From Candidatus Eiseniibacteriota bacterium (lineage in GTDB: Bacteria > Arandabacterota > Arandabacteria > JAGLYR01), in assembly GCA_023132135.1 (NCBI GenBank), contig JAGLYR010000076.1, positions 1 to 8,375 of the forward strand: DNA of 8,375 bases. The letters are read 5' to 3'. Every line of letters begins with the position of its first letter. Position 1 is the first letter of the stretch. The notes under the pieces were generated by a model, which worked only from the letters and a program-made list of their open reading frames with translations, searched no databases and was not told the origin of the DNA. Shown here piece by piece: positions 693-7,139 of this stretch. The position numbers and the translations under genes are program-made.

Positions 693-2591
693 ATGAAAGT
701 ACTCATTCTCAACGGTGGAAGTTCAAGTCTGAAATACCACCTGCTCGATATGGACTCCGGCAGAACGGTTCTCGAGGGGACCATAAGCAATCTCGGGCTG
801 GAAGGCTGCCATCACACCTACACGGACCACACAGGCAGGTCGCGCACATATGATGTTGTCGTGGCTGACCACGAGCGGGCATTGAAGATTGTCTTCGACT
901 CCATCGAGAAGAAAGCCAGGATACCAGGTGACCAGCTCGGGGTCGTCGGCCATAGAGTCGTGCACGGCGGTGAGCGGTTTCAAGGCCCGGTGATCATTGA
1001 CGCCGCCGTTGAGGAAGCCATAGCCGGGTACTCGCAGCTCGCTCCCCTGCACAACCCGGTCAACCTCAGGATCATCCGGGCTGCGAGGGCACAGCTGCCG
1101 GGCGCGACGCATGTGGCCGTCTTTGATACCGCCTTTCACAATACGGTCCCCGACTACGCGTCCGTGTACGGCATTCCGTACGAGTACTGCAGGGATGACC
1201 ACGTGCGCAGATACGGGTTCCACGGGAACTCGCACGAGTATGTCGCTCTCCGCGCTTCACAGTACCTGGAGCGTCCCCTGAGAAGACTCAAGCTGATAAC
1301 GTGCCATCTGGGGAATGGAGCGAGTGTTTGCGCGATAGACAGGGGCCGGTCGATCGACACGAGCATGGGATTCACGCCGCTCGAGGGCCTGGTGATGGGC
1401 ACGCGGTGCGGTGATGTTGACCCTGCTGTGATCACCTACCTTGCGAGGGAAAAGCAACTCAGCCTGGATGCCATCGACAACATGCTGAACAAGGAATCGG
1501 GCCTGCTGGGCATCTCCGGCATCAGCAGCGACATGCTGGAGGTGCAGAGGGCTGCGGAGGAGGGCGACCCCAGGGCGCTTCTTGCAATCAAGATGTTCTG
1601 CTACCGCGTGAAGAAATACATCGGATGCTACATGCTGGCGCTGGGCTGGGTGAATGCCATAGTGTTCACGGGCGGGATCGGTGAGAGGAGCAGGGGCATC
1701 CGGTCACGCATTCTTCAGAACACGGAGAAGCTCGGCCTCGGCATCAGCGAACAGAAGAACAGGATCTGCGAGGTTGACAGGGGCCATCCCGCTTTCGATA
1801 TCAGCCATCGCTCGTCCCGCGCGCGCGTGCTTGTTGTGGCAACGAATGAAGAACTCATGATGGCCAGGAAATGCCTTGAGGCCATCGACTACGATAGAAC
1901 GACGCGCATCTCCACAACCGAGGCCATTCGACAGATACCCATCGGCATATCCGCCCATCATGTGCATCTCTGCAGGGCCGACGTGGACGAGCTCTTTGGT
2001 AAAGGTCACCGTCTGACCGAGGCAAAGCCACTCTCCCAGCCGGGTCAGTTTGCTTGCGAGGAGAAGGTTGATCTGGTCGGCCCCCGGGGAACGGTGAAGG
2101 GGGTCCGGATTCTTGGTCCGGAAAGACGCCAGTCGCAAGTCGAGATCTCGCGCACCGAAGAGTTCAAACTCGGGGTCGACGCACCCGTTCGGGAATCGGG
2201 AGATCTCGAGGGCACCCCATGGTTGACGCTCGTTGGCCCGAAAGGCCGGGTCAAACTGGCGCAGGGCGTGATATGCGCCAAACGCCACATCCACATGACA
2301 CCCGAGGACGCAGAGCTGTTCGCCGTCTCAAACGGCGATCAGGTAATGGTGCGTGTTACGGGCGAAGGACGGGAACTCATTTTCGGAGACGTTGTCATCC
2401 GCGTCAACAAAGACTATGCACTCGAGATGCACATAGACACGGATGAAGCGAATGCCGCCGAGCTCTCGGCAAAGGCCACCGGTGTGCTGGTGTCCATCCA
2501 GCAGAAGAAAGACGGGCCCGCGTGGGCGGCATCCCCTCGCCCTGAGCCCGTCGAAGGGAGAGGGGCCGCGCATTTCCTCCGTTCGCCCTGA
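693..2591 (+). CDS. Bifunctional acetate kinase-PduL phosphotransacylase fusion
   Basis: This is a 632-residue fusion. Residues 1-398 are a full acetate/propionate kinase: N7-GGSSS-LK, Arg88 (GHRVVHGG), Asp145 (VFDTAFH), His177 (YGFHGNS), HLGNGAS (205-211), Arg238 (MGTRCGDVDP), GGIGE (327-331) and TNEE with Glu386. These match Asn7, Arg91, Asp148, His180, Arg241 and Glu384 of the Methanosarcina enzyme. Residues 415-600 are a PduL-type phosphate acyltransferase with both zinc-site HxH motifs (HHVHL 422-426, RHIHM 531-535), the QPGQFACEE segment, QVEISRT, and two LVGPKG/LVGPRG repeats. A short linker (399-414) joins them with no stop and no internal start site. Inferred chemistry: acyl-CoA plus phosphate to acyl-phosphate, then acid plus ATP, or the reverse. 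The PduL half lacks an N-terminal microcompartment targeting peptide, so a cytosolic location is likely. Residues from about 608 on are repeat-derived, and the stop codon lies in a second repeat copy. Confidence 0.93.
   Translation: MKVLILNGGSSSLKYHLLDMDSGRTVLEGTISNLGLEGCHHTYTDHTGRSRTYDVVVADHERALKIVFDSIEKKARIPGDQLGVVGHRVVHGGERFQGPVIIDAAVEEAIAGYSQLAPLHNPVNLRIIRAARAQLPGATHVAVFDTAFHNTVPDYASVYGIPYEYCRDDHVRRYGFHGNSHEYVALRASQYLERPLRRLKLITCHLGNGASVCAIDRGRSIDTSMGFTPLEGLVMGTRCGDVDPAVITYLAREKQLSLDAIDNMLNKESGLLGISGISSDMLEVQRAAEEGDPRALLAIKMFCYRVKKYIGCYMLALGWVNAIVFTGGIGERSRGIRSRILQNTEKLGLGISEQKNRICEVDRGHPAFDISHRSSRARVLVVATNEELMMARKCLEAIDYDRTTRISTTEAIRQIPIGISAHHVHLCRADVDELFGKGHRLTEAKPLSQPGQFACEEKVDLVGPRGTVKGVRILGPERRQSQVEISRTEEFKLGVDAPVRESGDLEGTPWLTLVGPKGRVKLAQGVICAKRHIHMTPEDAELFAVSNGDQVMVRVTGEGRELIFGDVVIRVNKDYALEMHIDTDEANAAELSAKATGVLVSIQQKKDGPAWAASPRPEPVEGRGAAHFLRSP
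2540..2558 (+). repeat. Dispersed palindromic-type repeat, copy 1 (inside the coding region)
   Basis: The 19-mer ccctgagcccgtcgaaggg lies inside the 3' end of the AckA-PduL frame, where it is read as RPEPVEG. It is identical to 2586-2604. Repeats of this type (ccttcga...gctcagg) are scattered through many bacterial genomes and often add RPEPVEG-like tails to predicted proteins. Confidence 0.8.
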
Positions 2592-3867: not shown

Positions 3868-5904
3868 GTGCGGAGTGCCGGGTTGGGAAGATGGCTGGCG
3901 GGAACGTGCGCGGCGGCGGGCCTGTTTCTCGCCGCCGGTGTTTCCGACTCAGCCCAGGGGCAAACTGCGACAGCACCTGCGCAGAACGCGTCCCGGACAG
4001 CGATCAATCTCATTGTCAATTCAGGCTTTGAGCAGGAAGGCGGGCATCGGCCTCTGCCGGCAGGCTGGAACGGTGATGCCGGTATCTATGCCCGGGATGA
4101 GACCATTGCCCGCACCGGACACGCTTCACTGGGGTTTGCCAATCCCGATCCGGACACCTACCGGCTCTGCAGCCGGCGGTTGCCGGTGGCGCCCGGTTGC
4201 AAGTACCGGTTCAGCGCCTACGTGAAAACGGAGGGGATCATCGGCAGAGGCTCGGGTGCGACCGTTTGTCTGGAGTGGCAGGATGAAGCGGGGCAGTACC
4301 TGGGCGGATCCTATCCCCCGGGAGTGAAGGGCACAGCGGACTGGACTCTGGTTGAGGACATCACGCGGATTCCTCGCGAGGCTGCGTCGGTTTCCCTGAT
4401 CTGCTACGTCCGGAAGGGAATGACGGGCCGGGCCTGGTTCGATGACGTCGAAGTCATGGAACTTCGCGACCCTCCGATGCAGACAATCCTCATGTCTCCA
4501 GTGTATCGGGGCTGGATCACCCGTGATGGTCCCGACTGGATCCGGGTACGCGCAAGGCTGGATCCGGCGCGCGAGGAAGCGCCGGGGGCTTCCGCCAGGA
4601 TCGGGGGCAGGTTGCAGACCACAGACGGCACTCGCCTGTACTCATACTCCACCGAAGAGAGACCCGCGGCCCAGCCCTTCGATCTGGAATTCCCGACCGC
4701 TCTATTAGAGACGGGGGAGTACGTGGTTGTCGTCGAACTCGTCGATGCCCAGGGCAATCCCCTTCAGACGGACCGGCATTCGGTCCTCCGCCTGGACGAC
4801 GATTTCGAGGCAGGCGTCGCAGTCGACGAATACCGGCGGCTGATCGTGGATGGCAATCCCTTTTTCCCGATCGGGATGTACTGGTCGGCGATCGATGAAC
4901 ACGATCTCCGGATCTACGCTGACAGCAGGTTCAACTGCCTGATGCCGTATGCATCCCCGGACAGGGAAGAGATGGACCTGATCCTCGAGCATGGGCTGAG
5001 GGTCATCTACTCCATGAAGGACTTCTATGCCGGGTCGCGCTGGAGCCCTGCGTTTATCAAAACGGAAGCGGACGAGGAACCCAACGTGCGGGCCCAGATT
5101 CGCCGGTTTCGGGACCACCCGGCGCTGCTCGGCTGGTATCTCAACGACGAGCTGCCGGAACCGTACATGCCTCGCCTGGAAATGCACTACCGGTGGGTGA
5201 AGGAGGAGGACCCCGGCCACCCTGCGTGGGCCGTGCTCTGCGAAGCGCCCGAAGTGGGCCGGTATCTCAACACCTTCGATGTGGTTGGAACCGACCCGTA
5301 CCCGATTGCCCGGGAGCCGGCCTCGATGGCGGCCGAATGGACGGTGGAGACGCTGCGCCGGGTCGAAGGGGCGCGGCCGCTCTGGCAGGTTGTTCAGGCA
5401 TTCAACCGGGGAAACTACCGCAATGTCGACTACGAGGATGCGACAACGCGCACACCCACCTATGAAGAGATGCGCAGCATGGCCTGGCAATGTATCTGTG
5501 AAGGGGCGACGGGGATCTTCTTCTATTCATTCCAGGACATCAAGCGCAATCCGGATATCCCCTTCAAGACCCAGTGGGACAACCTGAAGCGGATTGCTGC
5601 GGAGATCGACGCCCTGACCCCGATGCTGCTTTCCGTGGAACCTGTTGTTGATGTGGAAACCGCTTTTGCGCCGGAAGAGCCCGACTGGCTGCACTGGACG
5701 GCGCGGTCATGGGGTGGCGCCCTCTATCTCTTCGCCGTGAACGATGGGGATGGTGGAGGCAGGGTCATGTTCACCCTGGGGAAAGACATCAGACATGTCC
5801 GCGCGCTCGGCGACAATCGAGTGATCGAACATCAACGGCGGGGGTTCGAGGATCGCCTGGGCCCGCTTGACGTCCGTATCTATAAAGTGGATGCAGAAGA
5901 GTAA
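3868..5904 (+). CDS. Secreted TIM-barrel glycoside hydrolase-like protein with carbohydrate-binding-like domain
   Basis: The gene encodes a 678-residue exported protein. Residues 1-31 are a signal peptide: Arg8, a hydrophobic LAGTCAAAGLFLAAGV core, then SDSAQG, with no lipobox. Residues 46-198 resemble a CBM4/9-type jelly roll: NLIVNSGFEQ at the start, PAGW, then FDDVEVMEL at the end. Residues 200-310 look like a beta-sandwich. Residues 318-590 look like a clan GH-A-type TIM barrel opening with LIVDGNPFFPIGMYW (325-339). It includes FRDHPALLGWYLNDELPEPY (414-433), DVVGTDPYP (471-479), RPLWQVVQAF (503-512) and GATGIFFYSF (546-555). Residues 591-675 form a C-terminal beta region. Glu428 in YLNDEL sits where the acid/base Glu is expected. 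No Glu is evident on the RPLWQVVQAF strand where a nucleophile would often lie. Substrate and activity are unknown; a plant or algal polysaccharide fragment is a guess. It is likely expressed with the transporter before it. Confidence 0.8.
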   Translation: MRSAGLGRWLAGTCAAAGLFLAAGVSDSAQGQTATAPAQNASRTAINLIVNSGFEQEGGHRPLPAGWNGDAGIYARDETIARTGHASLGFANPDPDTYRLCSRRLPVAPGCKYRFSAYVKTEGIIGRGSGATVCLEWQDEAGQYLGGSYPPGVKGTADWTLVEDITRIPREAASVSLICYVRKGMTGRAWFDDVEVMELRDPPMQTILMSPVYRGWITRDGPDWIRVRARLDPAREEAPGASARIGGRLQTTDGTRLYSYSTEERPAAQPFDLEFPTALLETGEYVVVVELVDAQGNPLQTDRHSVLRLDDDFEAGVAVDEYRRLIVDGNPFFPIGMYWSAIDEHDLRIYADSRFNCLMPYASPDREEMDLILEHGLRVIYSMKDFYAGSRWSPAFIKTEADEEPNVRAQIRRFRDHPALLGWYLNDELPEPYMPRLEMHYRWVKEEDPGHPAWAVLCEAPEVGRYLNTFDVVGTDPYPIAREPASMAAEWTVETLRRVEGARPLWQVVQAFNRGNYRNVDYEDATTRTPTYEEMRSMAWQCICEGATGIFFYSFQDIKRNPDIPFKTQWDNLKRIAAEIDALTPMLLSVEPVVDVETAFAPEEPDWLHWTARSWGGALYLFAVNDGDGGGRVMFTLGKDIRHVRALGDNRVIEHQRRGFEDRLGPLDVRIYKVDAEE

Positions 5905-5921: not shown

Positions 5922-7130
5922 CTACAACGGATCAACCAGGCGTCCCAGGAACAGGATGGTCCCCGTCGTATTGTCACGAATGAGAAACAGGAACGGGTGA
6001 TCTGCCCGGAAGTTGAGTGTCCTGGATGATAACCCCTTTATGACGACGGCTGTCGAGGCCGAAGCTTCGCTTCCCTCTTCGTTCACTTCTATGAAGGCCT
6101 TGTGGAGTACGCTACCCATGAACAGCGATCTGGAACCGTCCATTCCTGAGAAATCCGCTCTTCCGATAAGGAAAGCTTCCTTCATGCCCAGTGCCTGCAG
6201 ATGATCCGTCAGATCCTCGGTGCCCCACGTGATGCTGAATTCGGGCAGAGACACTTCCACCTCACTTGGTGAGAGACTCGAGAGCCAGGACAGCAGGTTC
6301 TCCTGTGTGAGGCTGTCTTCGACATCGCTGAGATGGTACCCGCTGCGAGGCAAGACCACAAACATGGCCAGATCGTCGCCGGCGTACGGAAGTTCGATGA
6401 CCTGAACCTGTTCGTGCTCTCCGTACTTGAAGCTGCCCTGCTGAGTCATCATCCGAACGTCTTTTTCTTCGCCGCCGGGTAGAACGAAGCTGCCTGTGTA
6501 CGTTCTTGATTCGTCAAACTGGTGCGCCCAGTCTCCTTTGAAGTAGATGGCATTGACCAGAACCAGCATGGTTGCCGGATCCAGATCGCCGCGCCGGATC
6601 AGATCCCTGATCCTGTCTCTCGTTTTCCCCTCCACCCAATGGTTGATGGTTTTGCGGGCCTCTTCGGTAGCACCCGAGTAGTCGACGGGCGTTACGGGAG
6701 CACCATAGTGCTGCCTTGCCAGTGCAAGGTATTCCTCCCGGAACGGATAGTCCACTTGAGGCCACAGCGAGTTGGCCACAAGCAGATCCAGATCTCCCTT
6801 GTTCCGGATTGCCCCTAGCCTCTTGTCCGACTTGGCGAATGCCGGGTGAAGACGATCCTGGTCCAGTGCGAAGTGAAGGGTTTGCTCCATTTCATCGGCT
6901 GTTTTCCCCCGGGCCCCTCCATATGTCATGGCCAGTGCCGTTGAAATGCTGTAGGGGGAAAAGAACAGATTGCCCTCAGTCGTCCGCAACTCGCGGTACA
7001 GATCCAGGGCGAATGCCGTGTTGGACCGGACGAGAGAACCGGTATCTGCAGACACCTCCCCGGCACTGGGCGGGGTTGGGGAGCACGATATGGCCAAGGA
7101 AAGCGCCAGTGCGAATCGGAGCGTCTTCAT
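5922..7130 (-). CDS. Serpin-family protease inhibitor, predicted lipoprotein
   Basis: The gene encodes a 402-residue serpin. Residues 1-20 are a lipoprotein signal with LAISC and Cys16 as the candidate lipidated residue, placing the protein on the periplasmic or outer face of a membrane. The serpin fold is complete: NLFFSPYSISTALAMTYGGARGKT (54-77), LVNAIYFKGDW (191-201), the VIELPYAGDDLAMFVVLP region (244-261), and the family signature FRADHPFLFLI (374-384). The reactive-centre hinge EEGSEASAS (351-359) keeps Gly at P15, Ser at P14 and small residues from P12 to P9, as inhibitory serpins do. By canonical spacing P1-P1' is Leu367-Ser368, suggesting chymotrypsin-, elastase- or subtilisin-like targets. 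The start at 7130 is preferred over the ATG at 7139 because the GGAGG site is only one base from the latter. Its stop is 17 bases from the stop of the convergent hydrolase gene, with no obvious intrinsic terminator between them. Confidence 0.93.
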   Translation of the reverse strand: MKTLRFALALSLAISCSPTPPSAGEVSADTGSLVRSNTAFALDLYRELRTTEGNLFFSPYSISTALAMTYGGARGKTADEMEQTLHFALDQDRLHPAFAKSDKRLGAIRNKGDLDLLVANSLWPQVDYPFREEYLALARQHYGAPVTPVDYSGATEEARKTINHWVEGKTRDRIRDLIRRGDLDPATMLVLVNAIYFKGDWAHQFDESRTYTGSFVLPGGEEKDVRMMTQQGSFKYGEHEQVQVIELPYAGDDLAMFVVLPRSGYHLSDVEDSLTQENLLSWLSSLSPSEVEVSLPEFSITWGTEDLTDHLQALGMKEAFLIGRADFSGMDGSRSLFMGSVLHKAFIEVNEEGSEASASTAVVIKGLSSRTLNFRADHPFLFLIRDNTTGTILFLGRLVDPL

Positions 7131-7139
7131 AGCGTTCAT

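Follow-up and report, generated by a model that had tools for sequence, protein, structure and literature searches.

An open reading frame in the genome of a Candidatus Eiseniibacteriota bacterium appeared to join acetate kinase (AckA) to a PduL-type phosphotransacylase, raising the question of whether one polypeptide truly carries both enzymes and, if so, what it would do in this genome. We analyzed the whole contig on which the frame lies, a stretch of 8,375 nucleotides referred to here as the window. The first part of the question has a plain answer: a single uninterrupted gene encodes a complete AckA followed by a complete PduL. Its features are listed below.

693–2591, + strand: AckA-PduL fusion gene; 632 aa plus stop, single open frame
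680–687, + strand: ribosome-binding-site-like GGGAGAGG, read directly; precedes the ATG at 693
696–1868, + strand: complete acetate kinase domain (PF00871); profile match; PDB matches 2iir and 1g99
1869–1937, + strand: linker, aa 393–415; in the AlphaFold2 model it extends the last AckA helix (386–412) and includes a low-confidence hinge (407–410)
1938–2465, + strand: complete PduL-type phosphotransacylase domain (PF06130); profile match; PDB match 5cuo
2511–2588, + strand: non-conserved C-terminal tail, aa 607–632; pLDDT <50, partly read from a dispersed repeat

The gene starts at the ATG at 693 and ends with TGA at 2589–2591; a GGAGG also precedes the ATG of its homologue in a KSB1 genome (L138). 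A Pfam search aligned PF00871 to aa 2–392 (458 bits, cut-off 22; profile positions 1–392 of 392) and PF06130 to aa 416–591 (263 bits, cut-off 25; positions 1–175 of 176), bearing out the preliminary description, which had reported both enzymes in one chain. Scores of 454.8 bits against TIGR00016 (curated cut-off 293.4) and 267.1 bits against NF011652 (curated cut-off 209) place the protein among acetate kinases and PduL enzymes, respectively, and its reading frame contains neither a stop nor a frameshift between the two domains. The repeat CCTGAGCCCGTCGAAGG occurs in the window at 2541–2557, 2587–2603, and 2726–2742, with one copy translated into the tail of the fusion protein and another containing its stop codon; there are 25 copies genome-wide, against 0 for the reversed control. 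Elsewhere in the window, a complete bacterial serpin (PF00079, 400.6 bits) occupies 5922–7139 on the − strand, and the sole match of a 678 aa protein at 3868–5904 (+ strand) is a sub-threshold one to glycoside hydrolase 42.

A frameshift or misassembly joining two adjacent genes could also produce such a frame, and an error of this kind in the linker had been considered from the outset. In this draft genome, the 8.4 kb window makes up an entire contig, and genes of this type do break: the homologue on a plasmid of S. meliloti RU11 (L035:5001–6798) is split within PduL into frames of 524 and 62 aa and is probably a broken copy. However, the frame in the window is open through the linker, the KSB1 genome independently has the same fused frame at 77–80% identity, and one-frame fusions make up 111 of the 115 loci among the matches listed in the pattern scan described below. 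Because L138 is fused likewise, with a linker of the same length, we consider the linker at about 1869–1937 to be real; with L138 and the 111 pattern loci fused in a single frame, we rejected an assembly artefact, to which we give next to no credence. A misbinned contig was not favored either, as GC (59.3%) and GC3 (72.8%) resemble those of neighboring genes and of other contigs; the dispersed repeat is common to them as well. The gene had no match among viral contigs.

Both halves of the protein look catalytically competent. Roles in AckA were assigned by reference to the M. thermophila enzyme, in which we take Asn7, Arg91, His123, Asp148, Arg241, and Glu384 to be catalytic. These correspond to N7, R88, H120, D145, R238, and E386 of the window protein, which also keeps S10, S12, K14, F176, H177, and N208. 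For PduL, Erbilgin et al. 2016 (PMC4784909) give His48, His50, Glu109, His157, His159, and His204 as zinc ligands and Arg103 as the phosphate Arg. The window equivalents are H423, H425, E484, H532, H534, and H580, with R478 as the phosphate Arg, so that a two-zinc site is present; almost every fused row retains these zinc and phosphate residues, indicating that both halves remain under selection. It would be conceivable for one domain to be inactive and to act merely as a scaffold or regulator, but every catalytic and zinc-binding residue checked is present, as the preliminary description had held, and conservation with L138 is about equal in the two halves (77% and 80%), making this reading highly improbable.

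An AlphaFold2 model has high confidence for each domain, with solved acetate kinases and solved PduL each matching their own half; the predicted PduL half fits 5cuo with a TM-score of 0.96 on the target and an rmsd of 1.0–1.1. None of the best 50 PDB matches listed covers both halves. The relative placement of the AckA and PduL sites is uncertain in the model (pTM 0.70, hinge at 407–410), which therefore gives no support for channelling between them.

We propose that the protein is a cytosolic bifunctional enzyme that converts acyl-CoA to acid plus ATP and, in this genome, takes the place of individual genes for AckA, Pta, and PduL, a reading to which we assign a probability of about 85%. The C-terminal PduL, with its two-zinc site, would convert acyl-CoA, most likely acetyl-CoA, and phosphate to acyl-phosphate and CoA, and the N-terminal acetate kinase would transfer the phosphate of the acyl-phosphate to ADP to yield acetate and ATP. 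Both reactions are reversible, making acetate activation also possible, and the fusion fixes the ratio of the two sites at 1:1. The AckA pocket (V90, L119, F176, P229) is compatible with acetate, with propionate also possible, and the substrate could be propionyl-CoA instead of acetyl-CoA. In the window's genome, which is 96% complete, the fusion is the only match to PF00871 and the only match to PF06130, and a profile search found Pta (PF01515) absent. ADP-forming acyl-CoA synthetase-like genes are present there and may provide a further acetate route beside the fusion. With its domains complete and catalytic residues kept, the acyl-CoA to acid plus ATP function initially suggested for this protein appears sound.

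To place the gene among its relatives, we scanned one genome per species with a DNA pattern spanning the end of AckA and the start of PduL, obtaining at least 115 loci; the pattern requires Met-Ile or Met-Met at the AckA end, so this count is a lower bound from a biased sample. The preliminary description had called for proteins with this domain order to be mapped to taxonomy, and they proved numerous: in 111 of the 115 loci among the matches listed, a single frame aligns with the AckA half as well as the PduL half of the window protein. The four exceptions comprise L076 and L132, in which separate AckA and PduL frames overlap, L097, which runs off the end of the examined stretch, and L065, which is PduL alone. 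By titles and lineages, the matches listed span about 15 phylum-level groups (Pseudomonadota, Myxococcota, Bdellovibrionota, Thermodesulfobacteriota, Nitrospirota, Planctomycetota, Verrucomicrobiota/Kiritimatiellae, Elusimicrobiota, Fibrobacterota, Spirochaetota, Chloroflexota, Aminicenantes, Hydrogenedentes, Fischerbacteria, and KSB1). No match spanning both domains was found in 60 relatives picked by kinship alone, and the fusion is therefore patchy. Among 72 neighboring frames in the window's clade, there was no conserved partner.

In a tree of AckA domains, one branch separates the whole set of 97 fused rows from 35 single AckAs (SH-aLRT 96, quick method), and because of this arrangement the fusion likely arose once; the PduL tree is less resolved, with 4 changes between fused and single. 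Encoded in one frame with AckA first, and sharing this ancestry, the window protein belongs to the AckA-PduL fusion family. At least 33 of the 111 listed pattern loci encode an extra N-terminal cyclic-nucleotide-binding (cNMP) domain (L037, L052, L079, L102, L104, L117, and 27 further loci), and rows cut by a locus end may add more. These triple fusions (about 770–800 aa in, for example, L037, L052, L079, and L102) form the nearest large clade to the window protein and share its core, but carry an additional PF00027 domain of about 165 aa that the window and L138 proteins lack. Upstream of the fusion gene in the window and in L138, no frame gave a PF00027 match or remnant, which leaves both outside the cNMP subfamily. 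The two nevertheless group with the cNMP clade on AckA (95), the window protein falling inside that clade in the AckA-only tree and beside it when the joined AckA-PduL alignment is used; loss of the cNMP domain and never having had it fit equally (AU p 0.50). Where the pattern allows the cNMP pocket motif (such as GEMSLLTGEP) to be read, there is no Arg at the usual cyclic-nucleotide-phosphate position, so the ligand of the triple fusions may be one other than cAMP. In Verrucomicrobium sp. BvORR106, a cNMP-binding domain fused to fumarase C lies directly upstream of the triple fusion (L052:3292–5145), and in an Aminicenantes genome an FHA-GAF-adenylate/guanylate cyclase gene adjoins it (L117:356–2035).

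The history of the gene seems to differ from that of its genome. Identity between the window and KSB1 proteins is 77–80%, whereas RpoB of the two genomes is only 60% identical, and genomes of the same class as the window's (RpoB 70%) have only separate AckA and PduL enzymes, which are 45–53% identical. For these reasons, the fusion gene was probably acquired horizontally, an argument that draws on one genome pair, assumes comparable AckA and RpoB rates, and would be weakened by unequal ones. The KSB1 gene has 38.5% GC; because GC3 of the window fusion (72.8%) matches that of its neighbors (70–74%), the acquisition would be ancient enough for its composition to have become host-like.

Whether this PduL serves a microcompartment bears directly on the proposed function. 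It was initially judged to work probably outside such a compartment, with no shell genes visible. The latter statement stands for the window, where a profile search found none and which is thus no shell locus, but not for the genome, which encodes a microcompartment on another contig (C166). The former gains support from comparison: among 23 fusion genomes of the window's clade, 5 have PF00936 shell domains, and exactly those 5 have a standalone PduL (frames of 210–277 aa), on the shell-gene contig, while the other 18 have fused PduL only. Treating the genomes as independent, the hypergeometric chance of this split is 1 in 33,649, a figure overstated given their shared ancestry. Strong Pta matches (E <1e-60) occur in 4 of the 23. 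Because standalone PduL tracks microcompartment genes in this way, the fused form is probably cytosolic and energy-yielding and the standalone form the compartment enzyme. The window PduL has no N-terminal encapsulation peptide, since AckA precedes it and the fusion lacks an N-terminal extension; standalone PduLs of the same class begin with an additional stretch that contains a helix-like motif, which the fusion linker does not resemble by eye.

The C166 locus (L174, G000:C166, 1–6823) encodes a class II aldolase, two EutN/CcmL proteins, BMC-H, BMC-T, an aldehyde dehydrogenase, and an RpiB-DeoC fusion, and resembles a sugar-phosphate-utilizing microcompartment type (PMC4207490). In same-class genomes, a standalone PduL directly precedes BMC-H, BMC-H, EutN, and aldehyde dehydrogenase genes; at the matching place in C166, PduL is absent and BMC-T adjoins BMC-H. 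A precedent for a locus without PduL is reported from Marinimicrobia, in loci of a related type (PMC4207490). With no standalone PduL found in the window's 96% complete genome, the fused enzyme might also serve the compartment, having displaced the lumenal PduL so that CoA released by the aldehyde dehydrogenase is recycled by an untargeted enzyme. Yet C166 spans only 6.8 kb and is truncated on either side, such that its PduL either sits in a gap or is gone; the fusion protein has no N-terminal extension; and all five microcompartment-bearing genomes of the 23 keep a separate PduL on the microcompartment contig, which makes this additional role unlikely. We regard as equally doubtful the broader scenario in which a horizontally gained fusion replaced both a separate acetate kinase and the microcompartment PduL, leaving a sugar-phosphate-type compartment to recycle CoA through the untargeted bifunctional enzyme. 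The cytosolic, energy-yielding role remains our preferred reading.

Because nature here unites in one chain the main step by which fermentation yields ATP, the fusion offers a clean test case for acyl-phosphate channelling. The family survey outweighs the single gene: it reveals a widespread fusion of apparently single origin, a common variant in which a central metabolic enzyme bears a cyclic-nucleotide-type sensor domain, and a sharp divide between fused and microcompartment PduL.

Among known systems, the separate AckA plus Pta or AckA plus PduL pathways perform the same two reactions, but with two chains, and Pta, absent from the window's genome, belongs to an unrelated family. The R. palustris microcompartment PduL (5cuo) agrees with the window PduL in fold, in zinc ligands, and in the phosphate Arg; it differs from the window PduL in being standalone, bearing an N-terminal encapsulation peptide, and residing inside a shell. 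The novelty first implied for the fusion did not survive, since the architecture is widespread, is annotated in RefSeq, and already appears in Erbilgin et al. 2016 (PMC4784909). That paper describes multidomain proteins that contain PF06130, most of them carrying an acetate kinase annotation, and suggests channelling for acetate kinase-fused PduL without encapsulation peptides. Like these fusions, the window protein combines an acetate kinase with PF06130 in a single chain and has no encapsulation peptide; the paper's passages on the fusions give no fusion biochemistry and do not mention the cyclic-nucleotide-binding variant. In the literature we searched, mostly without subscription journals, we found neither a biochemical characterization of an AckA-PduL fusion nor a paper on the cNMP-AckA-PduL variant. 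The window protein is a further member of this already known, uncharacterized architecture. RefSeq labels fused proteins "acetate/propionate family kinase," including on Polaromonas and Paracoccus plasmids; those of Polaromonas naphthalenivorans CJ2 (WP_011798166.1) and Paracoccus sp. Arc7-R13 (WP_127899590.1) likewise have AckA followed by PduL in 593 or 587 aa and, at 45–46% identity to the window protein over the chain, belong to another branch of the fused family.
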